NCBI RefSeq assembly: GCF_020906515.1
Contig: NC_085852.1
Location: forward strand, 2,480,001-2,544,000
Length of the DNA stretch: 64,000 nt
Reading direction: 5' to 3'
Source of the DNA: Vanrija pseudolonga
Lineage: Eukaryota > Basidiomycota > Tremellomycetes > Trichosporonales > Trichosporonaceae
Part shown: in pieces, positions 225 through 42,462 of the stretch
Layout of the letters: the number at the start of each line of letters is the position of its first letter
Position numbering within the stretch: the stretch's first letter is position 1
Position numbers and translations under genes: made by a program
The notes under the pieces: generated by a model
Told to the model about the DNA's origin: nothing
Database searches by the model: none
Seen by the model: the letters and a program-made list of their open reading frames with translations, nothing else

Positions 225-1386
225 CTATCCTTCGTCAGCCGGCACTGGCCCATCCCACCCAATTCCTCCAGCAGCCAGCCAGCCTCGCATACATCCAGCC
301 CAACGGTGATCGTCGACGTCCACATCGTAGCCGAGGTAGTCTCTAAATCCTCGGCACAGTCGCTTCAGCAGGTGAGGGTGGGCGGCGTGGCGACAGAGGT
401 GTGCGATATGTGTCCTGGACAGAGCTGGAGGATCTTGCGTCGCAAACGAGACGATTTCCGAGACGGCTTCGAAGGGAAGTTGGAGGGCCACGGAGGTAAG
501 GGACGACGATGGAGGGGCTCGTGCGCGAAGAAAAATGCGAGCCACCGGTAGGCAGTGCATAGCGGCATTGACGGCGCGTGTCGTCAACCTGCTGTTTCGA
601 CGCAGGATCCTCCTGAGCGTCCTCCTATGCGGTCGAGGGAGATTGATTACCTCGTAGTCGATGCCCATAGTGGCCCTATCCCGCAGCTCCAATTTCGTCA
701 AGGTGGTGTTACCGGACGCCAAGGTAGATAATATCTTCAGTCCCGACGGTATCCAATGGGGAGAGTTAACGAGAATGTCGGGTTCGTCAGGATGGTTGAT
801 GCTCAGGTCGGAAACAGAATTCGACCGTGAGCATTGTAGAAAGGCGATGACGGTGTCGATGGGCGTTTCTTGGTGCAATCCGGTGATCGTGAGTTTACTC
901 AGCCTAACGCCGAGGCCACGAGGAGATTCGAGGATGATTCGGTAAAGGTCCAGGGATGGTGACAGTGTCCAGACAGAGAGCTCTTGTAACGTGCATTGTA
1001 GGGCGGCCTCGAGAATAGCTTGTGCCTCGGAATCCTAAATTGTCAGTCAGGAGACACAGACCATCGGCCAACAAGTTGGGGAGACATACCGACAGAAAAA
1101 CCTCGAGGCTCACGTCAAATCCAGTCGCTTTGTGATAATTGAGTTCGTATAACGTTCGGTAGGTCTTATTCCCCAGCCATGGAAGGATGCCTAGGGCTCC
1201 CACTGCGGTGTGGAGAGGCTTGATTCCGAGGTCGACCGAGTCATCTGCCCACCCCGGATATTCCGGTCCACCGTGTGCTTGAAGGCGTAGTAGATAGCCT
1301 GGTCACAAGCAATCAAAAGGGCTCTATAGGTGGGGCTAGCCTGCAGACTCACCACCTCTCTCGTCCTCCGGATCCGTGGCCGACAT
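225..1386 (-). CDS. LRR-A: divergent member of the LRR / C-terminal F-box-like family
   Basis: Model: complement(225..1034, 1090..1298, 1353..1386), 350 aa, introns of 54 and 55 bases. Exon 1 is short and ends in Gly-Gly in phase 1 just before GTGAGT, the layout of the other five family members in this window. The LRR part is weak. The family is recognised from the C-terminal half, where 'RRNSRLTTRAVNAAM' and 'LPVARIFLRARAP' match the shared RN-x2-L...P-x-RI block. An F-box-like stretch 'LPFEAVSEIVSFATQD' follows. No biochemical function is known to me; ligand binding or ubiquitin-ligase adaptor roles are guesses. The start is the ATG at 1386, chosen because it gives the family-typical short first exon. 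This is the most diverged copy, so the exact exon ends are less certain than for LRR-B to LRR-F. Confidence 0.65.
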
Positions 1387-3609
1387 GATGAGGGAATGTT
1401 GAGGTTGAGAAGAGAAAGTATGTGTTTGAGCTCGCGAGGCGTGTGCTTGCGTGGCGCGTGAGAAGGGGGCGCAGCTGGCGGACAAGGGGACGAAGTCCGG
1501 CTCGTGCTAGGATCGGCCTGTCCCGCACGCACAGATCCAAAGACTAGGACGTGACGAGTGGCAGTCGTGACTTGTGTCTCGAGTGCCCACTCCAGCCACG
1601 AAATGTGACGCGTCACCAGTAGCGACCGCATGCGTCCATCACCGCCATTTTCAATATCGACCACGTACACACCTCTGATGCAGGACCACAGACTGGCTGG
1701 TCAATGGTTCCACGAGGTCAGCGTCAGCAATCAACCAATCAGAAGGTGAGGTCCTGAGTCAGTCCAATCACAACCGCGGTTATGCGACTTCCCGATAGGG
1801 GCGGGGGGGCCCGCTGATCGCCGCCTGATCGGCAATGCCTGCGAGTGCCATTCAGGAGTGGCTAATCGGAGCCGCATGTTGCGGGTGTGGCACTCATGAG
1901 TCACCATGTAGCATCACTTCAGCCGAGGGGGACAGAGACTCAACGTCAAAGCCATCTGTGTATGGGCGGTGTGTGACTGCGAATGTTGTTTGATGTTCCA
2001 AGACTGTGCTAACGTTCCGTTGTCAGTGCACTGCGGAGCTCGATGTCATGGATCGAGCGAGTGCGACGAGGTGAGGGATGCGGTACGAGAAAGGACAGGA
2101 TAAAGAGGATGGGGGGACCCTCGACTCATCCTTCTCACCAGAAATTGCCATGGGTCATCCAAGCTTGGTGCAGGCGTTCGGGATGTTGCGTACTCGTGCA
2201 AGGGGTGAGCGAGGTGAAGCCGAGCCGTGCAATTGAAAGAGAATGGTGGGGTGTAAGGTGTTGGCTCGAGGAGTGCAGTGAGTGAATGTTTGCTTGCGAC
2301 TTGTTGACAAGTCTAAACTTGGCGCGCGTCCCAAGACCGGTGGAGGCTGGTACCCCACCACTCCAAGCACTAAAGCACCAAAGCCCATCGTTTTGATTTT
2401 TGTCGAGTTCCGGTACCAAATGGTTGGCTGAGGTTGCTCGACCGCAGGCTGGGAGTCTCGCCCGGAGCGAGCCGAACGAGGAGCAGACCTGGAATCGCTC
2501 ACCCCACCTGGTAATATCACTCCTGGGGCCGCTGATATTTTTTTGTTCCCGTCGCTGTTGGACGTCGGTTGGCCACTACCATTGGTGCCGTCGTCACCAT
2601 CTGCTTACCGGTGCTCACCACCAACCACCGACATTTTTCCCCGTCCATCCTGGAGGAGTGGAGATGGCTGAAACCGGTAGCGATGCATAAGAGACCATGT
2701 TCATGGATACTGTCATCACTGTTGCAATCAAAACGGCCAATGAGGGCCTGCCTGCCTGTCCGCATCGCGTTCTCCACCCTCACCAAAAGACAGTCGCGCT
2801 GCCCAGACGGGGGCAATACCAATGACAAGTCGCAAAAAGTTTGCATGCGATGAGCTATGAAGATATGAAGATATTACAATTGTACAAAGGGTCCGTGGTG
2901 ACTGCGAACAGCTACTGAACCACGGACAGAAGCCTGTACATTGAAATCGTTTTAATCTTGCAAGTAGGCGTATTTCGGGGTTTCGGGAAATGCAGATGTG
3001 GTGCTCGTAGCTCCTACAGCGTGTAGAAGGCGTTAGAGAGCGTCGGGGAGGCCGGTCCAGTGCATGAAGGGTTGTGAGACATGGCGAGGTCGAGACGGGT
3101 CGATTGAGTGGAGGTGGCACTTTCTGCCGCGAGATGGGTGTGGTGGAGGCAGGGAAATCAGTCGCGTGATTGGTGTCCCTGAGTATTGCTGTGCCTCTGC
3201 TGCTCCGCCATTTTGGCTCGTGTCACGTGTGCTCGTGCACTTGTGTGTTGCGACACGCAGTCGAGTGGTCGAGATGTCGGCCGGCACACATCGCGTCGCC
3301 GGCCGGGTCACCGGCTTGTAGCACCCACAATAAAATCGACAAAGCAGTGAAATTGGCATCGTCTTGCAGTTACATAATTCTGTGCGATGTCAAGTCTGGT
3401 GGAAACTGTGTACACTCGCGCCAAGCAGGCCAGCCTTGGAATCGACTTGGACCTGGCGGAAAGGCTGCACGCCATCCAGTGTCGGCATTTGTGCCGCCCA
3501 GCAGTGTTTCTAGAGTCTACAGTGCATCAAGCCTCCGTGGTAATTTTCTGTGTACGGAAATGGCGACGGGTTATAGTTGCAGCCCAACACCACGGAGCAT
3601 CCCTTGGGC

Positions 3610-3735
3610 GCGGTCCTGTGGCTCAGTGGTAAGACGCTGAGACGCAGGGGCCACAGTGACCGCCAAGGGTACTGGGTTCTGATCGGAGAGCGACTGGAAC
3701 CTGGGGAGGATCGCAACCTTTTGCCAGTTGCTTTG
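3610..3735 (+). repeat. tRNA-derived SINE-like repeat, copy 1
   Basis: The head has an A-box-like 'GTGGCTCAGTGGTAAGACG' (from about 3,618) and a degenerate B box 'GGGTTCTGATC' (about 3,675). The tail 'GAACCTGGGGAGG' followed by 'GCAACCTTTTGC' is shared with the copies near 4.8, 5.2 and 6.1 kb. It is too diverged to fold as a functional tRNA. Ends are approximate because no target-site duplication is obvious. Confidence 0.6.
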
Positions 3736-4235
3736 GCGGCTTGCGGTGGTTTGGTCGGTGGAAACGGAGAGTTGTCGGCGATGTCGGCAGAAAACGCCAC
3801 ACACAACGTTTCCCACCGTCGCGTCGTCGCGTCGTCGCACCGGCGCCGTCAGGCATCTTTCCAACTCGGGCTAGACCAGTGCTGTGCATTCAACATTTGC
3901 CCCAAGGCTTGGGAACGACGCGACAACGGCGCACGGCATTGTCGATGCGACCTTGGTGCTGGCACGAGAGTGAGTGCTGGAGGGGTAGAGAAAGTTGCGC
4001 GACGGCATCACTGGTGCTGGCAACGGCTGAAGCCTCAGAAAAGTGACCTTATATGTACAGCAGGTGTAGAAATGTAAACCAGCGGGTTCTCGGTCGTTGG
4101 GGCCCACCTCGCTGTCCACTCTGGGACGACTGAAGGGTGACCTTCGGCCGCATGGTGCGGCAGCAGTTGAAAACGCCTGGTTGACCACCCTCACGCCGAA
4201 TGCCTGTTCAGTTGGTACAGTCGCATAGCATCACT

Positions 4236-4310
4236 GGATAGGCATGGGAGCGGCATGAATGGTTAAGTCCTAGTCGCCGGTTCGAGCCCTTGGGACGGCT
4301 TGAGCTGAAC
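4236..4310 (+). repeat. Short tRNA-like fragment with B box
   Basis: A B-box match 'GGTTCGAGCCC' (about 4,279) is preceded by 'GAATGGTTAAGTCC', an A-box-like piece placed too close for a real tRNA. It lacks the 'CCTGGGAGGTTGGCAACC' tail of the neighbouring copies, so it may be a truncated or separate tRNA relic. Confidence 0.3.
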
Positions 4311-4757
4311 CCCCCAACAGGGGGGTGGGGGAGGTGTCCAGATCCCGGACACCGAATACCCTTTTGCCATTGGCCGACACGGCTTTGCCCCTCCCTGCGT
4401 GCAACACAACGCGTCTCGGGTTGTACCTCGTAGACGCGTCGAGGGAGTGTGTTTCGCGTGTGCGTGGTGATGCTTGGAGAATCCAGACGTGTGTTTTGTT
4501 AATGTGTGCATGGAGGACGTGTGTGTAACAAACACCTGTGTGGAAGGCGCGTGTGTCGCAGAAGCGATGCAGCAGGCGCGCGTGTACTGTACCAGACACG
4601 CTTGTAGCAGGGCCGCGTGCACGCTCGCGAGCTCGTGCAGCAGACACAAGTGTACTGCAAAAAGGCGTTGCGTGTCCGTCATTGGCTGCTTGGAAGTGTG
4701 CACGTGAGCTCCTGCTCAAAAAGAGTGCAGAAACAAGGATAGCACCCCCGCAGTGGT

Positions 4758-4895
4758 CCCGTGGCTGAAACGTTAGATGGCGAGTCACAAGCTAAGCCAC
4801 GGCAACCGGCGGGGGTACCGGGCTCAAATCTCGATAGCAAGAGTGGAGCCTGGGAGGTTGGCAACCTTTGCTGCTCGCTCCTTTTGGTCTCTGTT
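4758..4895 (+). repeat. tRNA-derived SINE-like repeat, copy 2
   Basis: The head 'CCCGTGGCTGAAACGTTAGA' is A-box like. The B-box region reads 'GGGGTACCGGGCTCAAATCT', followed by 'AGCAAGAG' and the shared tail 'CCTGGGAGGTTGGCAACC' and 'TTTGCTGCTCGCTC'. The tail is nearly identical to the copies near 5.2 and 6.1 kb, while the middle of the head differs, as expected for an old dispersed family. Confidence 0.65.
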
Positions 4896-7498: not shown

Positions 7499-9780
7499 AT
7501 GGCGTTCCAGCAGATCAACCTCGCCGCCGAGCCGGGCATCGAGCTCCTCCCCAGCTGCGACCGCGTCGTTGCCGAGCGGCTGGAGCTGGTGGGAGAGGAA
7601 GGCGGTGAGTGCCGAGCTTGAGTGAAGAGGGGCGTGGGCGCGTGTTGGAGGCGTAAGCAGGACGAGAGAGCTGCAGAGGGCGCGGCGCGTTTGTGGAATA
7701 CGGCATGTTACTACGGCTCGGCATGGACGCGTCGTACGCGGGCTGCCTGCCGGTCGCTATGTGCGTGCCGGTATCAACGCCCTGCGTCACTGAGGGGATG
7801 AAGAGGTAGCGGGGAGAGGGGCGATGTGTGCTCCTAGCGACGTTGCAAGCTGACACTCTGCGCCGCGCCTTGCCGACACCTCACGCACCGACCTCACAGC
7901 CATCAAGATCTTGAACGCGACGACCAACCGTGCTGCGCAGATCGACGCTGGGCACAACCAGCTGACGGCAGCCAGCTGTCGCGTCCTCTTTGAAGGCCTG
8001 ACGATCCGGCACCAGGCCGTCCCGAGCTGTCCGACACGGCGGCTCCCCGAGACCAAGCGGCCCAAGCCCTTGATGAAACCCCAGTGCATGAGCACCATCG
8101 ACCTGTGCGACAACAACATTGGCGACGAGGGCCTTCTCTACGCGCTCAAGTACTGTGCCGAGGACCATGGCATGATGAGGCTCAACTGTCGCGGCGCGTG
8201 GATCAAGGTGGGTGACATGTTGGGCGGGGTGCTGACGCCAGCTCGACGAGGGCTATGTCGACCAAATGGTCGAGTACATCAACGCGTCGCACCTCGAGAC
8301 TCTGGACCTCGGCTACAATCACCTTTCTCCCGCCGGCGCGATCCGATTCTTCAGCCAGCTCGAGGGCCGCTTGTGTGATCTCGAGCTCAAGGGCTGCGTG
8401 CTGCCCGTGTCAGTCGCTCCGGCAATCGCAGAGTACCTCGCATCACCGCGGTCACGATCCCTCCGTCGCCTGGGGATGAAGTACAACAACCTCAGTCTGA
8501 AAGGCTTCAAGACGGTCATGGCGGCCCTGGAGCGGTCCAACTTCACCCTCGAGGAGCTCGAGCTGTTTGCGACCAACGACCCGTACTACTCGCGCGCGCC
8601 AAGAGAACACGAGTGGTACGGCGGCAAGCCAGACGTTACCGAGCTCGCGATCGCCAACATGCCTGCCAAGGAGTACGACGAGCTGTCGAGCATCATCGAC
8701 GACCAGATCTTCGACGTCCTCGGCCGCAATGAGGAGCTTGGTGGTCGCGTCAACGAGGCGGTCACTCGCGTCCTCGTCCCGGCGCGAATCATCCTGCACG
8801 GGCGAGAACCGACGAAGGCGGAAGCGAAGCGACAAGTCAAGAAGGCAGCTGCAGCTGCCATCGAGGCCGAGAAGCGCAAGAGGCGGAAGGAGAAGGAGCG
8901 CGAGACTTCGGCATACCGACACCTGTGGGAGGATCCGTCCGACGAGGACGAGCTGAGCGAGGGAGAGCTCGAGCAGCTCGAGGAGGCGTATCTGGAAGAG
9001 CTCAACGACGAAGAGTCAAAGAGTGACGAGGACTGGACCACCGACGAGGGGGAAGAGGTCGAGCAAGTCACCCCCAAGCGCTGGGTCAAGGGTGCGGATG
9101 GCATATGGGCGGCTGAAGTCATCGAGGTGGCAGACAGCGACGACCATGCCGACCCACCACCGCCGCCGGAACTCACCATGTTCCCGGTGCTCAAGCTCCC
9201 ACCAGAACTTCAGGTCACGATCGCCGAGTACTCGAGCCAGGACGTGGCGGCGCTGAGCCGGGGGCAGTGGTCGCGGATCTACAGCCACCTCAAGGACCGC
9301 AAGAGCCTGGGCGAGCTCGCTCGCCAACGCCGCGAGTGGATGAAGGGCCACCGGGTGCTCAAGACGGACGACCCGTTCGTCGCCGGCATGCAGGGAGCCG
9401 AGTTCGAGACGCAGTTCCTGCAGAAGCACGGCCTCATGGGATGGGAGGACGACGCGGTGAACCGCGATCTGGCGGCGGCAACGAAGGGCAAGGGCAAGGC
9501 GCGCGCTGAGCCACTCCCCGAGGTCGTCGCCAATGGCATGGCTGCGGGCAGCTCACGCGTGGACCAGCTCACCGCCGCGATGGAGGACCTCGGCGTCGGC
9601 GGCTCGGGCTCGGCGGGCTCGTCATCTCGCGGACAGCCGCGCTCCCTCGCTGCGCGCGTCGAGGAGGTTGAGGATGAGGACGCCGATCCCATGCCGTCAT
9701 CATCCAAGGGCAAGGGCAAGGCCGTCGACCCCATGCCTTCGTCATCCAAGGGCAAGGAGAAGGGTAAAACAAGAGCATAA
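7499..9780 (+). CDS. LRR-B: leucine-rich-repeat protein with C-terminal F-box-like motif
   Basis: Model: join(7499..7604, 7900..8207, 8242..9780), 650 aa, introns of 295 and 34 bases. Exon 2 carries the family opening 'QIDAGHNQL' and 'NNIGDEGLLYALKYCAED'. Exon 3 has ribonuclease-inhibitor-like LRRs such as 'LDLGYNHLSPAGAIRFF' and 'LGMKYNNLSLKGFKTVM'. Next come the block 'GRNEELGGRVNEAV' / 'LVPARIILHG', a long acidic and lysine-rich charged segment absent from the other members, and the F-box-like 'LPPELQVTIAEYSSQDVAAL'. The C terminus is low complexity with a repeated 'DPMPSSSKGK' unit. It is the longest family copy because of the charged insert and tail. Function unknown; a protein-interaction scaffold is the safest reading. 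Confidence 0.85.
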
Positions 9781-10060: not shown

Positions 10061-10147
10061 GGTCGCGTGGCCCAATGGCAAGGCGTATGACTACGACTCG
10101 TTGCAGCAGTAATCATGAGATTGCGGGTTCGATCCCCGTCGTGGCCT
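10061..10147 (+). tRNA. tRNA-Arg(ACG) with intron
   Basis: The acceptor stem GGTCGCG pairs with CGTGGCC, allowing G-T pairs. The 'GTGGCCCAATGG' D-arm is typical of fungal Arg(ACG) tRNA. The anticodon stem is TATGA/TCATG with loop CTACGA...A, giving anticodon ACG and an intron of about 15 bases after position 37. T arm: 'GCGGGTTCGATCCCCGT'. It lies 7 bases upstream of tRNA-Ala, probably in one transcript. Confidence 0.95.
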
Positions 10148-10154
10148 GAGTGCA

Positions 10155-10244
10155 GGGCGTGTAGCTCAGTTGGTAGAGCGTGTCATTCGCATGAGGAGAC
10201 TCTGAGAGTTGACAAGGCCTTTGGTTCGATTCCTAACTCGTCCA
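10155..10244 (+). tRNA. tRNA-Ala(CGC) with intron
   Basis: 'GGGCGTGTAGCTCAGTTGG' begins the acceptor and D arm, and 'GGTTCGATTCC' is the T loop; the end is 'CTCGTCCA'. The anticodon stem TGTCA/TGACA encloses TTCGCA...T, giving anticodon CGC and an intron of about 17 bases. A TTTT run at 10,247-10,250 suits Pol III termination. It is a close paralogue of tRNA-Ala(AGC) at 26,598-26,700. Confidence 0.93.
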
Positions 10245-14067: not shown

Positions 14068-15877
14068 ATGGTCGCGGGACCCGGCCCAACAGTCGAGTCG
14101 TATGCGGGACGGAGCCGCATCAATGCAGGCAAGCTGGGTCTGCAGGGCGTGGAAGGGGGTAAGTGGACGAAGGGCTTGGTCGGCTGGTGGAGGAAGGTGG
14201 AGGCGCGGCTCCTCGAGTCAGCTCACGCGACGCACATGTCGGCGGCCACCTGGCGAGGCAGGGGACGACTTTGGCTGACCCAACCATAGCCCAGGTCATC
14301 GCCTCCAAGGTCACGCGCCAGACCGAGCAAATCGACGCACGCTTGAACCACCTCGGCGCCGATGGAGCCGTCGAGCTGTTTGATTGCCTGACGGACCTGC
14401 TGTACACCGACGAGGGAGACGAAGACGAGCCGGTTGCGACACCTGGACGCAACGATGGACAGTGGGGACTCTACTCCGTCCTCCTCGGCGAAGACCTCAT
14501 CGGTGATGAGGGGTTTGCGGCCGGCCTGCGTTACGCGTGCGAGGACCGTTCCCTTCGATGGCTCAGCATGTCGTACTGCGGCATCAAGGTGAGTTTGAGG
14601 GGGAGGAACCGCTTCTGACAACCCAGCTGGACAAGGATTTCGACTTTGACAACGCGGCGCAAGACCTCAACCTCTGCGACTTGGAGGAGCTTACGCTGTC
14701 CTACAACCACATCTCGATTCCCGGCCTCGGCAAGCTCCTGGAACGACTGGCGCCGCGCAATCTCCGCTCACTCGACCTGAGAGGATGTATCCTCGAGCCC
14801 GAAGCGGTTCCGCATCTTGCCGCCTTCTTCAGCTCGCCACGCTGTCGGTCGATTGAAACACTCGACGTGTGTTACAACCATATGGGCCACAAGGGGATCT
14901 TCGCCTTTTTCGATGCGCTCATGAAGAACAATTTCACAATCCAGCAGATCGAAGTGACGTACGGCAACTTGGAGCACATGGACAGACCCGACGTCTCAGA
15001 AGAGGAGCTAGCAATGCCTTATCACGTCAGAGGCAGAATATACCAGCCCAGCGGCATACGGCACTATGGAATCCGGTATCCGGTTACGACTGAGATGGAC
15101 GAAGACATCCCCGAGGGGGAACAGCACGACCTTTTGCACATCATGCCTTTGACACGGCGCAGATTCCTCGAACGCAATCGGGGCCTCTACACCCGTGTAG
15201 GCCTCTCCGCTCTGCAACTCCTTCCGATTGCTCGGATCTTCATCCACGCACGACCACCGGCGTCCGAAGCCGAGGTTGCGGAGCTCGAGTCTGCGGCTGC
15301 GGCCTCAAGGGGAAGGCTATTGACCCGAAAGCGCAAGTGCGAATGTGTCAAGCATCGATCTATTTGGGAGCCGACGGACAAGTGGGTCAAGTGCACCAAC
15401 GGCATCTCCCTCTACGATACACTGTACAATGCGCCCAAGACACTGCCAGTGAAGCGCGTCGCCGTCAAAGGTCGCAAGACTATCAAGGGCAAAAAGGAGA
15501 TCACGATCCCAAAGCCAAAGGTCTTGTGTCGCTACTGTGTGGCCAACGAACAACCACATCCCGAACTCGAACCGTTTCCGCTGCTCAAGCTGCCTCGGGA
15601 CCTCCAGCTTCGCGTGGCGCGGTTTTCGTGCGACGACGAAACGGCCCTGAGCGATGCCCAGTGGGATCGGCTGGTTGGATACGCATCACATCCCGACAGC
15701 CTGGCGCAGCGCGGCGCCGAGTTCAAGACCTTCTTCCACGGCATCGAGGTCGGCTCGCAGGTCTACAAGTTCATGATGGGCGAGTTTATCCGCGAGTGGC
15801 GTGGTCGGCTCGGGCTCGCGGGGTGGGAGTCCAACACGGCCAACTTGAGGTTCATGAAGGAGATGCGGCGGGAGTAG
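14068..15877 (+). CDS. LRR-C: leucine-rich-repeat protein with C-terminal F-box-like motif
   Basis: Model: join(14068..14158, 14290..14588, 14627..15877), 546 aa, introns of 131 and 38 bases at the two family-conserved sites. Exon 2 has 'QIDARLNHLGADGAVELF' and 'IGDEGFAAGLRYACED'. Exon 3 has LRRs such as 'LTLSYNHISIPGLGKLL' and 'LDVCYNHMGHKGIFAFF', then 'ERNRGLYTRVGLSAL' / 'LPIARIFIHAR'. A CxC ... CxxC pair (Cys-Glu-Cys after a Lys-Arg-Lys run, later Cys-Arg-Tyr-Cys) brackets a basic segment and could bind zinc; other members lack it. The F-box-like motif is 'LPRDLQLRVARFSCDDETAL'. It lies in tandem with LRR-D 1 kb downstream, suggesting local duplication. Function unknown. Confidence 0.85.
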
Positions 15878-16915: not shown

Positions 16916-18422
16916 ATGGCGCTCGTATCCGTCCCCAGTGGCGACCTGGTCTACGTCGTGGGCCAGAACCTCAGCGGCGTCACTGGCGGTGAGTATGACG
17001 TCGGCTCGGCGCAGCGGCGCACCACCTTCCTTCCCTGCCTTCCCCGCACCACGCTGACCAACCGACCCACCCAGCGTACCGCATCCTCATGGAGATCTCG
17101 CCGCAGATGCACCGCCTCGACGCGGGGCACAACGCGCTCGGCAACGACGGCGCCGTCGCCCTCTTCCGCGGCCTCGCGACCCAGCGCATGCGCTTCAGCG
17201 CCGGGAAGGGCGCGCAGGCGTGGGGCATGCGCGAGGTGCGCATGGGGCAGAACAATGTCGGCGACGAAGGGCTAGCCAACGCCGTGTGGTACGCTAGCGA
17301 AGACCAGGAGCTCAAGAGCCTGTGGATGCCGGCTAACAGCATTACTGTGAGTTTGTGTGGGGCAGCGAGGCGGAGTCCCCGACCCGACGGTTAGAGGAGA
17401 GCACCAGCTAACCGCCCCAGTTTGCATCGGACCCAGGACACCTGTCGGCTCTGATTGAGCAGCTCAACAAGTCACATTTGACAGAACTGCGACTAGCGAA
17501 CAACCGACTTTCCCCCGCGGCTGTAGAGCAGCTCTTCACGAACCTCGAGGCGCCGCGTCTCCGCGCGTTGCATCTGTCCTCCTGTCGACTCCCAGCCGAG
17601 GTGGCGCCCGCGATCGCGGACTTTGTCGCGTCGTCGCGGTCTTACGGCCTCGAGATCCTCGAGCTCAACGGCAATAGCCTCGGAGCAAAGGGTGTATCCG
17701 CCGTCGTCGACGCGCTGCAGTCGAGCAACTTTACCCTCCTCCGCCTGGGTCTTCACGCCAACAACGCGCGACACGCGAGAAGTACAGGATCCGACGACGA
17801 CTGGGACAGCGAAGAGGAATGGTCGAGCGCGAGCGATGCCGACTCGGACGCGGCCGCGTGCCGCCAACAAACGGAGCGCCGTCTCCCCGCGCTTCTTGAA
17901 CGGAATCGCCTCCTCAGCCGCCGCGTCAAGGACGCAGCGGCCAGAGCACTCGCGCCGATGAGGATAATCCTGCACGCTCAAGCGCCTCCGGAGCAAGGCG
18001 AGGTCGATTCCCAGCAGGCCCAGCTCCAGAACCTCAGTATCGGTACGACGGGGACGAGCGATACCGCCAAGCCCGAGGCCCCGGCCCCATCACCTTCTGA
18101 AGCACCTGCGCCCTTCGACTCCTTCCCGCTGCTCCGGCTCCCTCGGGAGCTGCAGCTAGTCGTGGCACGCCACTGCTCGGGTGACGCAGAGGCACTGTCC
18201 GAGGCCCAGTGGAGCCGGATCACGACCTACGCGGGCGAGCGCGCCAGCCTTGCCCGCATGGCCGAACGGTCGCGGCTGGCGCTGTTCGCCGCAGCCACTG
18301 GCCCGAGCCGGGCCGCCCGTCTCGAGCGCAAGACCAAGATGCTCGAGGTGCTCGACGAGTGGCGCTCGCGGTATCGCTGCGACCAGTGGGAGATCAACCC
18401 CGAGCCTAGCGGCTTGTGGTAG
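16916..18422 (+). CDS. LRR-D: leucine-rich-repeat protein with C-terminal F-box-like motif
   Basis: Model: join(16916..16988, 17075..17346, 17421..18422), 448 aa, introns of 86 and 74 bases. The short exon 1 ends in Gly in phase 1. Exon 2 shows 'RLDAGHNALGNDGAVALF' and 'NNVGDEGLANAVWYASED'. Exon 3 has the LRRs 'LRLANNRLSPAAVEQLF' and 'LELNGNSLGAKGVSAVV', then an acidic Asp/Glu/Ser patch. After that come 'ERNRLLSRRVKDAAARAL' / 'APMRIILHAQAP', a Pro/Ala linker and the F-box-like 'LPRELQLVVARHCSGDAEAL' with 'SEAQWSRI'. This is the cleanest, most compact example of the family layout. A CAAC-rich leader precedes the ATG. Function unknown. Confidence 0.87.
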
Positions 18423-22878: not shown

Positions 22879-24349
22879 CTAGTCCCTCTCCCACGACCAG
22901 CAGTCGATTCCAGAGAACCACTGGTCAAACTCGCGCAGCATGCGGCGCCTCCTCTCGTCGTTGCGCACATCGACTGGACCCCGGTGAGGTGTTGAGCCCA
23001 GCGTCTTGCGGTCTGAAGCGTACGCGGTCAGGCGGGACCACTGCGCGCCGCTGAAGGCATTGGCGTCACCCGAGCAGAGGCGCGCAATCTGGAGCTGGAT
23101 CTCGCGCGGCAGGTCGAGCAGCGGGAATGTTTGGCGAGGCACGGGGCGCAATGCCTTGAGTGCCCTCGATGGCCAGCGCTTGTGCGACTTGCTGGGCTGC
23201 ACAACGGTCGCCTCCGTGGCTGGCAGCTTGAGACCGTGCACAATGATTCGCGTCGGCGCCAGTGCCCGCACAGCAGCCACCCTCACCCGCCAGGCGAGGT
23301 CGCCATTGCGGTCACAGAGTCGACGGCCTCGATCGATGGGGGGAGGGGGTATTTCGAACATGCCTGGCACCACGGTGAAAAGCCTGGGCAGCACATCAAA
23401 GGTTGTGAGACCGGAGTTCCCGCCTTCAAGGCCGTCGAGGAGCTCTCGCACGTCATCTTCTCCAAGCCCATGAGTCCTCATCTCGAAATCGTGGAGCCTT
23501 CGGCCCCGCGGTGAGGTGAAGAAGCCGACGATGGCTGGGAGGCATTCTGCGCCGACTTGGCACCCGCCAACGTCGAGTCCGCGTAGACATGGTGCGTCGA
23601 GCAAGTTGAACAGCTGGATGACTCCTGAGGATGTTAGGGGGTTGTCTGACAGCGACAGGCTTTGCAGGCCCGAGTTGTTGAGGTGCGTGACGGCTTGGCG
23701 CAGAGTATCTGCGTCTTGGAGCTGCCCAAACGCTTCAGCACGGCATCGACTCCGTCACTCACCTTGAAGTTGTTGCACTCGAGAAAGACCTCTGTCAAGC
23801 TCCAGTCCTGACTTGCGTACGTGAGCACTGCACAGAGCCCCTCGTCGCCAATGTCATTCTGGTTGAGCCGGAGAATGCTGATTCCTCGGAAGGAGCGCGG
23901 CAAGAAAGGTACAGGCTCTTCCTGCGGCGTCCGGCCCAAGACGCTCAGCAATTGTACTTTGAGCCAGTTGTGCACACGGCATCGCGGGAGAACAGCCACT
24001 GTGCTACTGGGATGAGAAGCCTCGGCCACTGCAAACTGCCGCGGCTCATCCACTACAGTGAGCCATTTACCGAGGCCGGCCATGAGCACGCGCGCCCCCT
24101 CGTCACCCAGCTCGATGTGAGTTGCGTCGACCCATCCGGTGCTGCGCGTCAAGACCCGCACAAGAGCCTGTGCTACGAGCAGCGTCAGGTAGACCCCTCA
24201 AGCCCAACAACCCGGTACTCACCGCCCGCAATCCCGTGTGGTGTGTAATGGTTGACTGTCACCATCTCCATGTGGAGATTGGGGAGGGGCAAGACGCGAG
24301 CACGTTCAGATTGGGTGTGGGGTGGGGCGTTGAAATAAGATGAAGACAT
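22879..24349 (-). CDS. LRR-E: leucine-rich-repeat protein with C-terminal F-box-like motif
   Basis: Model: complement(22879..23721, 23763..24172, 24223..24349), 459 aa, introns of 50 and 41 bases at the two family sites. Exon 1 (42 codons plus one base) is longer than in the other members and ends in Gly-Gly phase 1. Exon 2 carries 'HIELGDEGARVLMAGL' and 'NDIGDEGLCAVLTYASQD'. Exon 3 has 'LSLSDNPLTSSGVIQLF' and 'LDVGGCQVGAECLPAI', then 'DRNGDLAWRVRVAAVRAL' / 'APTRIIVHG' and the F-box-like 'LPREIQLQIARLCSGDANAF'. The LRR section is shorter than in LRR-B. The exon 2 acceptor used (TAG|CA) gives the family-consistent 'AQAL'. Function unknown. Confidence 0.83.
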
Positions 24350-26722: not shown

Positions 26723-26809
26723 AGGCCACGACGGGGATCGAACCCGCAATCTCATGATTACTGCTGCTACGAGTCGTAGTCATACGCCTTGCCATTGGGC
26801 CACGCGACC
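26723..26809 (-). tRNA. tRNA-Arg(ACG) with intron, second copy
   Basis: This matches the copy at 10,061-10,147 except for one base in the 15-base intron (T to A). It lies upstream of tRNA-Ala on the same strand with a 22-base spacer, the same order as at the first locus. Confidence 0.95.
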
Positions 26810-28893: not shown

Positions 28894-30111
28894 ATGCTCG
28901 GCTTGGTCCCAGCGCTCGCAGCACTCGCTGGTGCCGCCTCCGTCGCGGCCCAGGCCAACCCCAACGCCCTGTCATGCTTGTCCCAAACGTGGTGGGACAA
29001 CTACCCTGACGCGAATAATGTCAGGCCCAACCTATTTCCCAATCCCTCATACCCAGACTCCTCGGCCGGATGCGAGGTGAGATGACATTGAACGGTACCA
29101 AAGGATGGCTACCGACCACCTCACAGGCCCTGTGCGGAGACACCAACACCGAACGCAGAGGATTTGCATTCTACAAACCGGGATTCTGCTCCTGCTCCAA
29201 TTTGTTCTCGGACGGCCAGTTCTACAACGAGGCGACGGACACTGTTGAAAACTACCTTACGGACCGTGAGTGTTTTATTTCGGATCGTGGTCTGGGGGCT
29301 GGCTTATCCATCCACAGCTGTCGACGCCTACGGCACTTGCGACGCCAACTCGATGACAGTTTTCTGGTTGAATGATCCACCCGAGTGGTACCCCTTCGAC
29401 AAGCGCTTCGCCCCCTTCACCGTGTGCATGAACGAACCCCTACCATCAGAGAGTATTTTCTACTACAAGGGTAACTTTCCTGATTACTGCTACTTCCCCT
29501 GCAAGGAGAGGGGGGGGAACAGCATGGCCATGCGGCTGGTCAACTTTGACCCGGGCTATGGAATGCCCCAGAACAGCACCACCGACTGGAATGTGGTCAT
29601 GGAGTGCCAGTGCTTCGTGACGCCCCCTGGAAGCCCGCCGCCTGCCGCAAACGGAAACTGCAAGTACGACTCGTACTTGTGGTACAACTCGGACATCGCT
29701 GTCTCCCCGAGCACGGTTGCGATGCGGCGTCGCCGGTCGAAGGCGATGCCGCAAGAGCGCCTGCACCGCCCACACACCGAGAGCGAGTACCATCTCGCGC
29801 TGTGCCCGCACCCACGACGCGCCTGTACCGTCCCTGACACGAATGCGTACGAGTGTGTCGACACGGCCGAGGAGCTCGAGTCGTGTGGCGGGTGTGTGCA
29901 CGGCGAGTATGGCGTCATGGCCAACGTGACCATGTTTGGGCAAGAGTGAGTGGCTTGGGGGATGAGGACTGGAGACCAGCTGATTGACACCTCCATCAGT
30001 TGCACTGCTATTCCCGGCGTGGCAGAGGTCGCATGCGTGCTGGGAAACTGCGATGTGCGGTCGTGCCAGCGCGGCCTGACGCTCAAGAACGGGGCGTGTG
30101 TTAGAAATTAG
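28894..30111 (+). CDS. CPL1-B: secreted cysteine-rich CPL1-like protein
   Basis: Model: join(28894..29076, 29127..29265, 29318..29945, 30000..30111), 353 aa, introns of 50, 52 and 54 bases. Signal peptide: 'MLGLVPALAALAGAASVAAQ'. The N-terminal Cys-rich region has 'CLSQTWWDNYP', 'YKPGFCSCSNLF' and 'DAYGTCDANS'. A basic linker ('MRRRRSKAM') follows. The C-terminal CPL1-like domain reads 'LALCPHPRRACTVPDTNAYE', then 'ELESCGGCVHGEYG' and 'DCTAIPGVAEVACVLGNC', ending 'NGACVRN'. In Cryptococcus the founding member Cpl1 is a secreted protein tied to virulence and macrophage responses. The role of this paralogue is unknown. It probably folds through disulphides in the secretory pathway. Confidence 0.88.
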
Positions 30112-30866: not shown

Positions 30867-32079
30867 ATGCTCGGCCTGATTTCAGCCCTTGTGCCACTGG
30901 CATGGCTCACCACGTTCGTCGCGGCACAGACACCAGAGCCGGACCCACTGTTCATCGGATGTCTGAGCAAGGAGTGGTGGCAGAAGCACCCGGAGGCACC
31001 CAACTATCCCAACAAGTGGGGTTGGGTTCAGGAGGACTCCAACGCACAATGTCAGGTTCGTCGTCTTGTTCAAGTCGCGGACATTGAACAGACTCAGGAC
31101 TACTGTTCTAGCTCTGGTTACGGAAACGGCTTCTCGTACTACTCTCCCCAGTTCTTCGCCTGCTCGAACTGGTTCCTCCCTGGCCAGGTGACCGACCCGG
31201 ACACGGGAGAGACTATCAACCTGATGACAAACCGTGATTATATCAGATGATCGCTGTGTCTATAAGTATCAGGGTGCTAACTCCCCCAGCGGTCGACGCC
31301 TACGGCACGTGCGACGAAAACTCGGTGACTGTGTCCTGGGTGAACACGTTTGGGGCCAACCGCCGCTTCTGGTGGTTCAGCGTGTGCCTCCCTGAAATGC
31401 TCCCCAACGCCAAAGCCTTTGTCTCCTCAACCACAGGCAACATCAAGGCTGACTGCTATGATTATTGCCGAACAATGGGCACGAGCATGGCGCTTAGGGT
31501 GGAGGGATTCTACCCCCCAAACCTCGGAGGACCGCCCAGCCACCTGGTCACCGCTTTCGAGTGCGCCTGCTACGACAGGCCAAATGACGGGCCAGCAACG
31601 CCGAGCAACAACTGCCAATGGAACTCGTGGCTCCTATACAACGACAACCTGCCCCTTGAGCCGAGCCCGGCCGCCAACAGGCGGCGACGTCTCAAAGAGC
31701 AGCATCAGCAGAACCGCCGCCGGTTCAACGGCATCGGCGATCGCGGACAGCACCACCTCGCCCTGTGTCCCCGGCCGACCTTGGCCTGCGCCGTTCCCGG
31801 CACGGACGGGTACGAGTGCGTCGACACGTCGCTGGAGCTCGAGTCGTGCGGCGGGTGTGTCCACGGCGAGTATGGCGTGGCGGCCAACGGAACCTCATTT
31901 GGGCAAGAGTCAGTACTTACTCGCGAGCGGAAGACAGGATCCCTGCTGAAACTCCATCCAGCTGCACGGCTATTAATGGGGTGGCAGACGTCGGATGTGT
32001 GGGTGGGAAGTGCTCTGTACGGTCTTGCCAGCGTGGCTTGGCGCTCAAGGACGGCGCGTGCGTTAGAAGTGGACTCTAG
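30867..32079 (+). CDS. CPL1-C: secreted cysteine-rich CPL1-like protein
   Basis: Model: join(30867..31055, 31098..31233, 31290..31908, 31962..32079), 353 aa, the same length as CPL1-B and with introns at the same sites (42, 56 and 53 bases). Signal peptide: 'MLGLISALVPLAWLTTFVAA'. The N-terminal part has 'GCLSKEWWQKHPEAPNYPN', 'YYSPQFFACSNWF' and 'DAYGTCDENS'. The CPL1-like domain reads 'LALCPRPTLACAVPGTDGYE', 'ELESCGGCVHGEYG', 'DCTAINGVADVGCVGGKC', ending 'DGACVRSGL'. Intron 1 is 42 bases with no stop, so read-through would add 14 residues; paralogues show it is normally an intron. The donor of intron 2 (GTGATT) and of intron 3 (GTCAGT) are weaker than usual. Confidence 0.87.
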
Positions 32080-32877
32080 AACCTCATGGACGTTGATTGG
32101 TCGCAGAGTCGGCTGGAAGAAGCTTTCAGGGAGTGGCTGACAACGCGTCGCACCAACTGATCGCGCGCGTAGCGTGCCATCCACCGGGTGTGGAAGCTGG
32201 CCATCAGCATGCATGGCGCCATGACCACGTCTTGTTGACCAGCCCAGCTGATGGATGCCAAGGGGTCGGTCGAGGTTGGGCTCCGAATTGCTGGCGGGCA
32301 GCACCGTCGATCCGTCGAATGAATTGGAACGCCACATCGGTTATCGGAACGATTAAGCTCGTGATATGTAACCGGCGCGAACCAGGAACGCCGACACGCG
32401 AGGCATTCAAGGATAGGTGACACGAACGCGACGAGCCACGGCACCCGAGTCGATTAGACCCAGGAAACAGGGTGTGCAAGGACCTTGGAACTTTTCCAGC
32501 TACGCCATCCTGCAACGCGCGAAAATCGCATTCCAGGATCGGCGACCACCCCGGGGCCGATGATCAGAGGTTGCAGGAAACTGGGCCTCCAGGCACGTCT
32601 CGCCACTTCTGGCTGTACCAGCTGGCAAGAGGTATATAGTGGCGTCCGCTCTGTACTGTAGGGCGCCGGTTCTCGGCAGTGGCATCCGGTGTTGACGCGC
32701 ATGAGGGGTGAAAGTGGCGCCTGCCCAGGTATTTGTGGTCGGTCAGAATGCCACCACAAAACAATCAACCATGCCTTCCACCACAGGCAATAGGTAGACT
32801 GCATGACCTCACACGGATGGGAGGTTGCCAGACCTTGCCCCAACGGGACGTTGCCATACGTCGGCCTCATGGGAGGC
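32080..32877. other. Spacer between CPL1-C and CPL1-D
   Basis: No gene supported; partly similar to the spacer after CPL1-B. It ends at the CPL1-D TATA box. Confidence 0.5.
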
Positions 32878-37088: not shown

Positions 37089-38555
37089 ATGACCGTCGTC
37101 GCTGCCACCCCAGAGGTCCAGTACCCCTTCACGCCAGTCGCCGCCCCCCGCGTGGCCGGCTACCACGAGTTCGCCAACGTCCAGCGAGCGGAGATCGGCG
37201 CCGTCGTGCCGAGCAGGGACGCGCCGAACACTCCCCTGCCCAAGCTGTTCGAGCCGCTCACCATCCGCGGTGTCGAGTGGTCGAACAGGCTGCTGGTTGC
37301 GCCGATGTGTACCTGTAGGTTTGAGGGTTTTCCTCGCCATCAACCTGCTCACGCCTCACCCCCAGACTCGGCCGACAACGGCAAGGCGACCGACTGGCAC
37401 CTCGTGCACTACGGCTCGCTCACCCTGCGCGGGTGGGGCTCGGTCCTGACGGAGGCCACCGCCGTCGTGCCCGAGGGCCGCATCTCGCCGCAGGACGCCG
37501 GGCTGTGGGACGACGAGCAGATCGCGAGCTGGAAGCGCGTCACCGACTTCATCCACGCCAACAAGGGCAAGGCGGGCATCCAGCTCGCGCATGCTGGTCG
37601 TAAGGCCGGCACGCAGACGACCTGGGTGGTCAAGGAGGCTGGGTGGACTGGTGGCTTGATCGCGTCCGACGAGAACGGCGGCTTTGCGAAGGACGGTGAG
37701 CTGCCCGGCCCTACTTGCTGCATGTCGATCTGACGCCCCAGTGTACGGCCCCTCGCCGATCACCTTCTCGAAGGGATACCTCCAGCCCGCGGAGGCGACC
37801 GAGGCAGACATCAAGCGCGTCGTCGACGGCTTCGCGGCCGCCGCGCGCCGCGCCAAGGCGGCCGGGTTCGACTTTGTCCAGATCCACGGCGCGCACGGGT
37901 ATCTCATCCACTCGTTTGCGTCGCCCAACACGAACAAGCGGACGGACGCCTACGGTGGGAGCTACGACAACCGCGTGCGCCTCGCGCTGGAGATTGCGCG
38001 CGCCGTGCGTGCCGCGTTTGACGGGCCCGTGCAGTACCGTATCAGCGCGACCGAGTGGATCGAAGGTGTTGCCGGTGCCGAGAAGCAGTTTGAGGGCGAG
38101 AAGGAGGAGTATGCGTGGTGGTGAGTGCGCGTGGCGATTGTGGTGGGCCGAGCTGACGCTGCCCCAGGGGCATTGAACAGACGACGCACCTCGCCGCGCA
38201 GCTCCGCGACGCCGGCGTCGACCTCCTCGACCTCTCGTCGGGCGGCAACGACGCGCGCCAGCAAGTGCCCGTCGTGGAGGCGTACCAGGCGCCGTTCGCC
38301 GCGCACATCAAGAAGCACGTGCCGGGGCTGTATGTCGGCGCAGTGGGCATCATCAACACGCCCGAGCTGGCCAACAGCATCGTGGAGCGCGACGAGGCCG
38401 ACTTCATCTCGCTCGGGCGCGAGATCCTGCGCAACGTCGACTGGCCGCTCCAGGCGGCCGTGCAGCTCGGCCTCACGCCCAACCCTGCCGAGCAGTATCG
38501 CCGCGGCTGGGCGGAGCGCGAGATCGCGGGCGCCGGCACAAAGGTCAAGGTGTAG
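37089..38555 (+). CDS. NADH:flavin oxidoreductase, old yellow enzyme family (YqjM-like class)
   Basis: Model: join(37089..37314, 37366..37695, 37742..38120, 38168..38555), 440 aa, introns of 46-51 bases. It is an FMN-dependent ene-reductase that reduces activated C=C bonds with NAD(P)H. Marks: 'LFEPLTIRGVEWSNRLLVAP' followed by 'MCTYSADNG' (the Cys of the YqjM class), 'GIQLAHAGRKAG', and 'FDFVQIHGAHGYLIHSFASP' with 'NKRTDAYGGSYDNR'. 'GAVGIINTPELAN' and 'DFISLGREILRNVDWPL' close the barrel. The N-terminal extension of about 50 residues is longer than in bacterial relatives but usual in fungi. Likely cytosolic, in xenobiotic or oxidative-stress metabolism. Confidence 0.92.
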
Positions 38556-38835
38556 CCGCCCGCAGGCAGCACTATCTAGATTGTAATGCATAGACTAGCA
38601 GAGAGAGAAAAGGCCGCAGCAGGTGGGCGCGGCTAGAAGACGCCGCATTCCGCGGCACGAAGGTGTATATTACTGTGGCTTGGCATGGGTAGGATACGAT
38701 TCCAGCAATGACGTCCAGGTGGGCGTCGGCTTGGGAGTTTGAAGGCGTCGGCGGGCTCAATTGGGTCGTTTATCGTTAGGTCTAGTCTAGTCGAGTCGAG
38801 TTGAGGTCAGGTCAGGTCGAGCAGCAAGCGCAGGG

Positions 38836-39090
38836 CTATAGCGCAGCTGGTGGATGCACTCGCGCGCGGTGGTGGCGATGATGGCGCGAGTTGATGCGGC
38901 CGGCTGGTGGGTGGGCAAGGTCGGTCTTCTCGGAGGCGTCGTCGTGGTGGTGGGCAACGCTGCTATCGCCGCTCACAGCCGCCTTGTGCTCGGCCATCAC
39001 AGTCCCCTGGCCTTCGTCGTCGGAGAAGACGGCGTACAGCGTGCCGGCGAACGACGCGGCCGTGAGAGCGAGGATGGCGACGGCGGCCAT
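38836..39090 (-). CDS. Small putative membrane protein
   Basis: A single open frame of 84 codons starting at ATG 39,090. The N terminus 'MAAVAILALTAASFAGTLYA' is a clear membrane segment or signal anchor, followed by an acidic patch ('SDDEGQG') and a His-rich, Arg-rich tail. A TATATA box at 39,165-39,170 lies 75-80 bases upstream, the spacing seen for other genes here. No family is recognised; the layout (one N-terminal TM with a short polar tail) is common among small mitochondrial or ER proteins. Short length keeps the confidence moderate. Confidence 0.5.
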   Translation of the reverse strand: MAAVAILALTAASFAGTLYAVFSDDEGQGTVMAEHKAAVSGDSSVAHHHDDASEKTDLAHPPAGRINSRHHRHHRARVHPPAAL

Positions 39091-39164
39091 GGTGTGGGTG
39101 TTGGTGGGGAGAGGGGTGGGGGGTAAGGATGGGGCTGCGTGATGCGTACTTGCCTGGCCTGGGC

Positions 39165-39170
39165 TATATA
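39165..39170 (-). promoter_or_regulatory. TATA box of the small membrane protein gene
   Basis: TATATA in 'GGGCTATATATTTG', 75-80 bases upstream of the minus-strand ATG at 39,090. Confidence 0.4.
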
Positions 39171-41180
39171 TTTGTGCACTGCGTGCGTGCGGTCGATGGA
39201 CGATGACGCAGCGACGAGCAAGCGACGACGACGACCTTGTTGTGCACACCAAAGGCAAGGCTTGCTCGCCACTTGTCACTCTTGCCGCGCGACAAGGAAC
39301 AGGAGAGGCATAATTGCATTAAAGTTGGCACTGTGCGGCGTGTGCGATGGGCTCGAGGCAGTGCGTTCGGGTCGGGTTGGGGTTGGCGGCGCACGCACGC
39401 TGGGTACGCAGCAGGTACTGGCTTGCGATCGATTGGTCGGTCGGTCGGGCGGCCCGGCGATGGGATGCATGGGTGGCGAGCGAGGTGCGACGATGCGGCT
39501 GCGACATCGCCGAGACTGCCGATTCCTGCACTGTCTCGTCTCGCTCACTCGCCTCGCGTAGATATCCATAATGAGACACCCACATGGCCTCCGATCGTGA
39601 CATGCAAGGATCCATCCATCCGCTGGAAACTAGCTCAAGCTCGGCGCGAGTGCCAGTGCCAGCCAGTGCCGCAACGTGACAATGTGCAGGGCGAGCTAGA
39701 CACGCAACCAGCAGATCCGGTCGTAGTCGTGTCGTCGAGTCGCAGCCGCCAAGCACGCTGCCAAACCTTGTACGCTGCGTGCTTCTACGTCGGAGCTTGT
39801 TGTGCTACTCCTGCTCTTGCCCCTGCCTCTGCGCCGCATGCCGCGGTGCACGCTGCCCCGACGCCACACCGTACGGTGCCTGTCTATCCAAATCAGGGGT
39901 GGGCAAGGGACGGCCAGCGTCCCGGCCAACCTTGTGGGTCAAGAGGCTCAGCCTACCTGCCCCACGCAGAGTGTTCGGAGAGTAGAAGTGTGCCATGCAT
40001 GGCGGGGGGGGGAGGGAGAGGCACCGACCATCGCGGGAGGTGGATGCATGGATGCAAGCGGCGACAGGACGAGTGCGACGAGCTTGCTTCCATGGCAATG
40101 GCCGTGTCCGTGGTCAGCTGTTCTGTGCTGTTGTCGATCCGACCCACCTCGTCGCCTGCTAGCCCACTCGTCCCACTCCCCCCGCTCCCTGCCGCCAGCA
40201 TGGTCTCCGTCGTCGCATGCACCACGCCGTTGCTGCTTGCTGCTGTAATGCAATGTCACGCCCCCGTTTCAGCACAGAGCAACACATGAAGCAGATCCCT
40301 TTCTTTGGGTCATCCTTACGCGCTTTAACGTAGCGAATCCAGAGCCGAGCAGTCACGCAGTGAGGGCAGCGCCGGCATGGTCAGGCATGCTCAGGCACTT
40401 TGAGTAACGACTTGTAAGGTCGAGCTCGCACTGGGCTGCCACTGGCTTGCGTTGTTTCTGGGAATCGGGCTACGACGCCGGACCATACCCCCCGCGCACA
40501 ACGTAAGACTGCCGCAATGCCCCTCCCAGTGCCGTCTTCTGGGTGCATTTGGGCCCAGTGGTGCAGGGAGCACGCAGGTAAGTAGGCAGGCACTGTAACC
40601 TTGTCTCAGTGTGCTTTGCTTGGCCTTGGGCTGGCTTTGCTTGTGCTTGTGCTTGTACGTGGTGCAGGCAGGCAGGCAGGCGGGCGAGTATAAGACTCGA
40701 AAGGGGCTGCGACGCTCCGACGCCGATGCCCCGTCGTTCGCTCGCTCGCTCGCTGTCATATAGACGTTGTGCGCGATACATACCAACCCCGCCCCGCCCC
40801 ACGCACGGCCGCCCAAGCCCGCCCACGACCACGATCCACGGATAGCACGACCCACCCACCCACCAACCCACCCCATCACATCCACTAGTGAGATCTACCT
40901 CACGGCATCCGCCGCCGCCTGGACTCACTCGCCATCTCGCCTCGCTCGCTCGCTCGCTCACCGACCCACCGACCCACCTCCCAGCGGCCAGCGCATACCG
41001 CAAGTGGCGTGATACTCGATAGCCGCGGCAGGCGACTAATTACTGGGGTGGTGGTGCCAGCCCAGCCCGTTGTGCGCGGTTGAGCAGCGCTCATCACTCG
41101 TCATAATAAGCAAGACGCCGGCTATACACCACCGCCGCCGCCGCCGTCGTTGCCGCTCGTTCCACTCACACACACACAAC
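39171..41180. other. Gene-poor divergent region
   Basis: About 2 kb between the small membrane protein (-) and LRR-F (+). A 350-codon plus-strand frame (39,237-40,289) is low-complexity in character, has a non-ATG start and no domain. CTCG tetranucleotide runs occur near 40,740 and 40,945, and CCCACC-rich sequence near 40,850. Nothing else is recognised. Confidence 0.5.
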
Positions 41181-42462
41181 ATGAACGTCGACGTCGAGTA
41201 CAGCGACCTCGAGGGCGTCGAGGGGGGTGAGTGGGGTGATGTGGGGTACTGAGCAAGCAAGCTGACCCACGCCCAGCCGAGGCCATCCTCGCGGCCATCA
41301 CGCCGCGCTCGCGCGCCATTAAAGCAGCGTACAACCAGCTCGGGGACGACGGCGTCGAGGCGCTCGTCGCCTCTCTGCCAGTACACATCGAGCAGCTCGA
41401 CCTGACCGACAACGACGTCGGCGACCGCGGTCTGCTCGCGGCGCTTGGCTACGCCGCACGTAGCGGGCTCAGGCACCTCTCGCTGGCGTTCAATGCGGTC
41501 CACGTGAGTATGCGCCGACGACACTGCACGCCGAGCACAAGCTGATGTCTTAGCTCGACGAGGCGACGACGCCAGTCGCCATCGCAGCCCTCAACGCCAG
41601 CCACCTCGAATCGCTCACCCTCTTCTCGAACCACCTCGAGCCCGGCTCCGTGACCGAGCTCTTCGAGCATCTCGCCGCGCCAAGGCTCGCAACGCTGCAC
41701 CTGAGCAGATGCAACGTCGACGACGCCGCGGCGACCGCAGTGGCAAGCTACCTGGCCTCCCCGCGCGCGGCGGCGCTGACAACCCTCGACTTGGGGAACA
41801 ACTGGCTCTCGGCACTCGCGGCCAAAGAGCTGATCGACGCCGTCGAGCGCGCGCATTTCGGGCTGCAGCACCTCTCGCTTGCGTCGCACGGGCTGCGGGG
41901 CACGCGCGGGTGTATCCTCTTCAAGGCGGACTATGACCCCAAGTTGGAAGCCGAGCCGCGCCCCCAGATGATGGTGGAGATGGCGCAGCAGTTGCACACG
42001 CGCCTGCCGGCCGCCCTGGGGCGGAATCGGGAGCTGAGGCGGCGCACGATGGCGGCCGCGGCGCGGGCTGTCGGGCCGGCGAGGATCCTGCTGCACGCCG
42101 CCGAACCAGCAGCACCTACCACCGCTACCACGGCTGCCACCCCTGCCACCACTACCACAACTACCACCACCACCCCCCCAACATTCCCATTCACCCGCCT
42201 CCCAGCAGAGATCCAACAAGCCATCGCGCGCCACGCCTGGGGCGACGCACACGCGCTCACCGAGGCGCAGTGGGGCAAGGTTGTGCGGTACGCCTCTGAC
42301 CGGACAACGCTAGGCGGCATGCTCGCCTGCCCGCCCTCCGCGCTGGGGTTCGACGCGCGCGTCGGGCTCGCACTCACAGCGTGGTGTGAGCGGCTTGGTT
42401 GCGCACAGTGGGAGAAGGAGACGCGGGGGTGGGAGCCGCCCAGTCCGCGGATTGGGGCTTAG
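41181..42462 (+). CDS. LRR-F: leucine-rich-repeat protein with C-terminal F-box-like motif
   Basis: Model: join(41181..41226, 41277..41503, 41554..42462), 393 aa, two 50-base introns at the conserved family sites. The 46-base exon 1 ends in Gly phase 1. Exon 2 holds 'AYNQLGDDGVEALVASL' and 'LDLTDNDVGDRGLLAAL'. Exon 3 has 'LTLFSNHLEPGSVTELF', 'LHLSRCNVDDAAATAVA' and 'LDLGNNWLSALAAKELI', then 'GRNRELRRRTMAAAARAV' / 'GPARILLHA', a Thr/Pro-rich linker and the F-box-like 'LPAEIQQAIARHAWGDAHAL' with 'TEAQWGKV'. It is among the shorter members and has the most regular LRRs. Function unknown. Confidence 0.87.

Follow-up and report, generated by a model that had tools for sequence, protein, structure and literature searches.

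The F-box/leucine-rich repeat (FBXL) proteins, a multigene family of substrate receptors for Skp1–cullin–F-box (SCF) ubiquitin ligases, carry their F-box N-terminal to the leucine-rich repeats (LRRs). The reverse order, with N-terminal target-binding repeats and a C-terminal F-box, is described for poxviral ANKR/F-box (PRANC) proteins, whose F-boxes are reported to be truncated to two helices yet to bind Skp1/Cul1 (PMC9414399). Here we describe a gene family of the basidiomycete yeast Vanrija pseudolonga (Tremellomycetes, Trichosporonales) that resembles both systems and matches neither. Six members, LRR-A to LRR-F, lie in a window of 64,000 nucleotides (NC_085852.1, positions 2,480,001 to 2,544,000; C4:2480001-2544000 in our contig naming) within a genome of 24,867,894 bases and nine contigs. 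The family combines LRRs of the ribonuclease inhibitor type with a C-terminal F-box-like domain. The explanation we favour, with modest confidence, is that these proteins are intracellular SCF-type substrate receptors in which the LRRs come first and the F-box-like domain comes last.

The repeats belong by sequence to the same class as those of ribonuclease inhibitor, as a preliminary description of the window had proposed, and as those of the NLRP proteins. Tandem repeats match both the Pfam family LRR_6 and ribonuclease inhibitor itself. Among four window proteins scanned, LRR_6 matches above its cut-off in LRR-B, LRR-D and LRR-F, and LRR-A has no Pfam LRR match; nine of 25 exon-3 segments from the family match LRR_6 at an E value of 1 or better. 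When the family profile is compared with PDB, ribonuclease inhibitor (1dfj) is identified with an E value of 9.7e-27, followed by NLRP5 chains. The likeness has its limits, as the best stretches listed (columns 17-117 of 291 for 1dfj) are confined to the LRRs and the adjoining linker, and Pfam scans of members list no NACHT domain. About seven repeats can be counted by eye in LRR-D. The [ND]x[IV]GDEG repeat attributed to all six proteins is exact in four of them (LRR-B, LRR-C, LRR-D and LRR-E), whereas LRR-F has GDRG and LRR-A lacks it.

Downstream of the LRRs, the proteins have a conserved helix-like stretch (RNxxL..RV..AA..L.PAR.LLHA, hereafter the RN stretch), a variable linker, the F-box-like domain (LPxEL..I...S.D..ALS..QW.RL..HA.DR..L, the LP domain), and a tail with the sequence WLxxGGFxWE. 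Each of the six window proteins has its LP domain after the LRRs, which is the reverse of the FBXL order and agrees with the preliminary description. Four of them, LRR-B, LRR-D, LRR-E and LRR-F, carry the proposed signature LPxE[LI]Qxx[IV]A exactly, and the corresponding stretch reads LPRDLQLRVA in LRR-C and LPFEAVSEIV in LRR-A. The family resembles FBXL receptors in combining an LRR recognition arch with an F-box-like domain in one protein and in being a multigene family; it differs in domain order, in an F-box-like part that scores below curated cut-offs, and in the additional RN stretch and tail. The parallel with PRANC proteins is one of architecture; the Vanrija proteins have LRRs instead of ankyrin repeats and are encoded on fungal chromosomes. 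Neither PRANC nor ankyrin Pfam models are among the families listed for the scanned members.

The six window genes make up only about a tenth of the family. Six protein searches of the genome continued to yield additional copies, and their totals are lower bounds. A profile of the C-terminal cassette matches 51 open frames in the stretches fetched first. With further stretches included it matches 61 frames, which represent 60 loci, one gene spanning two overlapping frames; the weakest of the 61 has an E value of 2.1e-10. These frames are distributed over contigs C4 (45), C3 (11), C1 (two), and C6, C7 and C8 (one each), and 45 of the 60 loci share a single contig. Outside the 60 loci, there are six further matches at E 1e-3 or better (C3:973976, C3:976337 with one stop, C4:490089, C4:1847858, C7:1867940 and C7:1869599), and C4:2186095 is a partial copy with the LRR part only. 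The exon-3 profile, in which the LRRs precede the LP domain, matches all 51 cassette frames, including that on C8, which is short and has its LRR part in another frame.

Members are clustered, as was noted for the window, but a recent local expansion is not supported, because the paralogues are old and the expansion extends across the genome. Among the 51 members the median paralogue identity is 25%, and only one of 1275 pairs exceeds 50%. By comparison, LRR-D shares 86% of aligned columns with P0001 from V. albida and 84% with P0002 from V. humicola. P0006, a V. pseudolonga protein (LOC62_04G006201) that has 296 consecutive identical residues in common with the family frame at C4:2407515, has a V. 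albida counterpart, P0009, at 75% identity. With orthologues at 75-86% and a paralogue median of 25%, the expansion is not recent, and a recent tandem burst can be ruled out. Judged from these alignments, the duplications that produced LRR-D and P0006 predate the split of the Vanrija species, and the low identity of the other members suggests that their duplications are likewise older than that split. P0001 and P0009 are each on a V. albida contig of 3,399,921 bases, presumably the same one, and their partners are both on C4 in V. pseudolonga.

Neighbouring copies nevertheless tend to be related in the two largest clusters, where 10 and 9 label changes are counted on a quick tree versus shuffled means of 15.0 and 13.5, with none of 500 shuffles as low. 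The smaller clusters, C3 and C4_0.3, give no such signal of kinship by neighbourhood (121 and 500 of 500 shuffles as low, respectively). Many branches of the underlying tree are weakly supported, 27 of its 54 inner ones being open, and it includes eleven long rows.

The LP domain is strongly conserved within the family, with L in 50 of 51 members, P in 51, E in 40, I or V in 51, L or F in 50, Q in 46, A in 45 and D in 40, and a closing W in 47 of 48 copies. Several results relate this domain to F-boxes. In single Pfam scans, F-box-like is matched by nine of 51 members (best E 0.0011), F-box-like_2 by seven (best E 0.0039) and F-box by three, whereas every other Pfam family among the 25 listed is matched by only one or two. 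F-box-like_2 matches three places genome-wide, all below cut-off, and all three are in family loci. Profile-profile comparison with 20 canonical F-boxes taken from this genome gives a probability of 87.6 and a score of 27.3 (probability 83.8 with 19 of the 20). When all columns are permuted, none of 100 draws scores above 12.8, and the reversed profile scores 8.5. The F-box-like part is also among the best-kept segments between LRR-D and its orthologues (45/47 positions in V. albida and 43/47 in V. humicola), unlike the linker (20/42 and 21/43). When the domain profile is compared with PDB, the F-box protein FBXO42 ranks second, although its E value of 0.14 is not significant. Its alignment pairs ALSxxQWxRL with AALVCKQWYRL at the cost of a gap of four residues; as a suggestion only, the middle of the domain would then be shortened.

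A second body of results weighs against an F-box identity. The F-box-like stretch recognized in the preliminary description owes its similarity mainly to helix 1, as 19.2 of the 27.3 score units are obtained from the first 15 columns by themselves. When they are kept and the rest is permuted, the real score is reached in eight of 100 draws, and the rest alone scores 9.9, whereas its permuted versions average 7.6 and reach 15.4 at most. As far as sequence profiles can tell, helix 1 is F-box-like beyond chance and the likeness of the remainder is within the permuted range. No family match for which bits are shown exceeds any Pfam F-box cut-off: family places in the genome scans reach at most 18.8 bits, and ten members scanned in detail reach at most 17.6 bits versus cut-offs of 20.5-24.3, with five of the ten matching no F-box family. 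Of the 105 genome places matched by PF12937, one overlaps a known family locus, and none of the 42 matched by PF00646 does. The W of the QW motif occurs earlier than the canonical F-box W unless a gap is allowed, and the top PDB match of the domain is HeliScrew4 (E 0.083), whose name points to a designed protein. Finally, other LRR-D segments are as well or better kept in V. albida, including exon 1 (24/24) and a spacer (28/29).

Matches to canonical F-boxes form clusters of their own away from the LRR family, at C5:1573333-1587568, C7:2191725-2224269 and C3:4129877-4197174 (PF12937, with some matches below cut-off).

In the SCF-receptor explanation, the N-terminal LRR arch would bind a target protein, and the C-terminal domain, if it adopts an F-box fold, would dock on Skp1 and thereby bring the target to the SCF ubiquitin ligase for degradation. 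A Skp1 gene is present in the genome (C4:790987-791168). No 19-residue stretch exceeds a mean hydropathy of 1.35 in the six window proteins, which have no obvious membrane segment, and for want of a long hydrophobic stretch we reject the view that the six are secreted or membrane proteins. For a protein that appears to be soluble and has an LRR arch and an F-box-like end, an SCF substrate receptor is the simplest account. Each paralogue might recognize one target, and might have retained it, distinct from those of the other paralogues, from before the divergence of the Vanrija species. A bolder reading, less probable than not, is that Vanrija, and perhaps other Trichosporonales, evolved about 60 SCF receptors of reversed domain order that are exclusive to them. 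In these, LRRs would be joined to a shortened F-box within a new C-terminal cassette, and the set would form an old repertoire for recognition and degradation in which every receptor has one fixed target. If the C-terminal domain does bind Skp1, a 24.9 Mb yeast genome devotes approximately 60 genes to reversed LRR–F-box receptors, and the nearest described parallel that we found for this domain order is poxviral.

Most of the probability not taken by SCF receptors falls to proteins that act as LRR scaffolds or sensors, in which the C-terminal part is a separate helical adaptor that resembles an F-box in its LPxE..I helix only and binds a partner other than Skp1. We regard this as a serious, though clearly less probable, possibility. 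It would explain why the F-box scores are sub-threshold, why the likeness to F-boxes lies mainly in helix 1, and why the conserved RN stretch and WLxxGGFxWE tail are foreign to F-boxes. However, it leaves without explanation that the F-box families alone, among those listed, recur in more than two of 51 members, and that the second PDB chain listed for the domain is an F-box protein, even at its weak E value. A different cullin adaptor is far less probable still. SOCS and VHL boxes, which engage elongin C, can sit C-terminally after repeats, and so the position of the domain is compatible with such a box. Yet the BC-box motif and the Cul5 LPxP motif are each found in none of the 51 C-terminal regions. 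Shuffled means are 0.85 and 0.03, respectively, such that the absence taken alone shows only that neither motif is a family feature; with no motif found, a SOCS or VHL box is judged very unlikely.

The variability of the LRRs bears on another proposal, which is that the family is an immune-type repertoire for intracellular recognition, with LRR faces engaged in an arms race and a C-terminus that triggers degradation or signalling. Clustering of a multigene family is consistent with this proposal, as is the finding that, of three classes of LRR position, the concave one varies most between paralogues. Over four exon-3 repeats in 50 members, mean entropy is 3.41 at concave positions (n=20), 2.74 at 57 other non-core positions and 2.15 at 20 core positions (p 1e-5 for concave versus the 57). 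The 57 include buried positions, and their upper two thirds average 3.19; the concave positions were assigned from the LxxLxLxx pattern rather than from a structure. Orthologues give a different picture. Concave changes relative to LRR-D number 0/20 in P0001, 7/20 in P0002 and 0/15 in P0003, and relative to P0006 they number 1/20 in P0009 and 0/20 in P0007. When these two orthologue sets are pooled, concave positions show no excess of changes (8/95 versus 34/277 elsewhere, p 0.35), although the comparisons share sequences and are not independent. The rapid evolution suggested in the preliminary description is therefore not borne out, as concave positions in these two sets change no faster than other non-core repeat positions. 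P0002 from V. humicola alone points to faster change, with 7/20 concave versus 7/57 other positions. In addition, recent duplicates are nearly absent, unlike in Caenorhabditis, for which PMC8665587 reports species-specific tandem F-box expansions. Considering both sides, we judge an immune-type repertoire to be improbable. If the SCF-receptor explanation is true, variability between paralogues without an excess between orthologues makes the family a case for examining how receptor specificities diverge and then freeze.

The gene models of the six window members are uniform. All six pairs of coordinates from the preliminary description yield a single open frame after splicing, with three exons and GT..AG introns, and in all six the last whole codon of exon 1 encodes Gly, intron 1 is in phase 1, and intron 2 is in phase 0, exactly as had been described. 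LRR-A (225..1386, minus strand; exons 1386-1353, 1298-1090 and 1034-225) encodes 350 residues, with its F-box-like domain and tail at 252..497 on the same strand. LRR-B (7499..9780, plus; exons 7499-7604, 7900-8207 and 8242-9780) encodes 650 residues, with the domain and tail at 9178..9453 (plus). LRR-C (14068..15877, plus; exons 14068-14158, 14290-14588 and 14627-15877) encodes 546 residues (domain and tail at 15572..15832, plus). LRR-D (16916..18422, plus; exons 16916-16988, 17075-17346 and 17421-18422), for which orthologues are found in V. albida (86%) and V. humicola (79%; 84% over aligned columns), encodes 448 residues (domain and tail at 18120..18392, plus). LRR-E (22879..24349, minus; exons 24349-24223, 24172-23763 and 23721-22879) encodes 459 residues (domain and tail at 22882..23130, minus). 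Residues 27-459 of its spliced product are identical, letter for letter, to the V. pseudolonga protein P0005 (LOC62_04G006241, 433 residues), which provides an independent check of this gene model and not of the other five. LRR-F (41181..42462, plus; exons 41181-41226, 41277-41503 and 41554-42462) encodes 393 residues (domain and tail at 42181..42417, plus). LRR-B alone of the six has a long low-complexity C-terminal extension past the F-box-like domain (9454-9780), in which a DPMPSSSKGK unit is repeated.

LRR-B to LRR-F are, by sequence comparison, clear paralogues, with every pair matching at E 1.3e-18 or better in BLAST against a database of the six window proteins only. LRR-A is a diverged member whose pairwise matches are weak, the best being to LRR-C (5e-7). 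It matches the iterated exon-3 profile with an E value of 2.3e-54, which is partly circular given that LRR-A is among the six seeds of that profile. However, it has the RN stretch, the LP domain and the gene structure in common with other members, and the quick tree groups it with copies outside the window at C4:2458391 and C4:2459875 (support 99).

Intron 2 is a feature of the family and not only of the window. Of 54 members, 37 have a phase-0 YAG between -6 and +3 codons from where exon 3 is modelled to start, compared to 50 of 366 downstream control positions, although 17 of the 54 lack it at the modelled place. Seven of the 61 frames were dropped from this count because the profile starts too late or no source stretch contains the frame. 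The copy nearest to LRR-F is at C8:117851-118866, close to where this 120 kb contig ends, and is 68% identical to LRR-F over 107 columns, making this the sole pair above 50%. Its interrupting stop codons rule it out as a normal member, and it looks like a decayed duplicate; it is counted among the 51 frames and the 60 loci but was excluded from the tree and the entropy test.

The family is known with certainty from Vanrija only. Of three homologue searches of public proteins, two scored the 7,999 and 8,000 candidates with the most shared words and one had 6,648 candidates; together they gave at least nine different proteins. Because only two V. pseudolonga proteins were returned versus approximately 60 loci, these searches set no bound on the range of the family outside Vanrija. 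Indeed, the alignments of P0004 and P0008 (27-45% identity) suggest that it extends beyond this genus. Among the matches listed, openly licensed PMC literature contains no description of such a family in Vanrija or Trichosporonales, and a term search of the main text of PMC12820176, which concerns Trichosporonales, gives no occurrences of F-box or leucine-rich. Parts of the family are already flagged in databases. Database records assign the UniRef name 'F-box domain-containing protein' to P0002, P0005 and P0009, all of which are family members, and the records for P0001 and P0002 carry Pfam PF27087.

The window also contains features outside the family. Two adjacent tRNA genes at 10061-10244 comprise a tRNA-Arg(ACG) and a second gene whose anticodon is unresolved and which may bear an intron, and a further tRNA-Arg(ACG) is at 26723-26809 on the minus strand (both from a scan with the bacterial code). 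Two open frames close to each other, at 29092-29946 and 31238-32137, have weak CPL1-like (PF21671) matches below cut-off, and a long open frame at 49120-51141 has an FHA domain match above cut-off.

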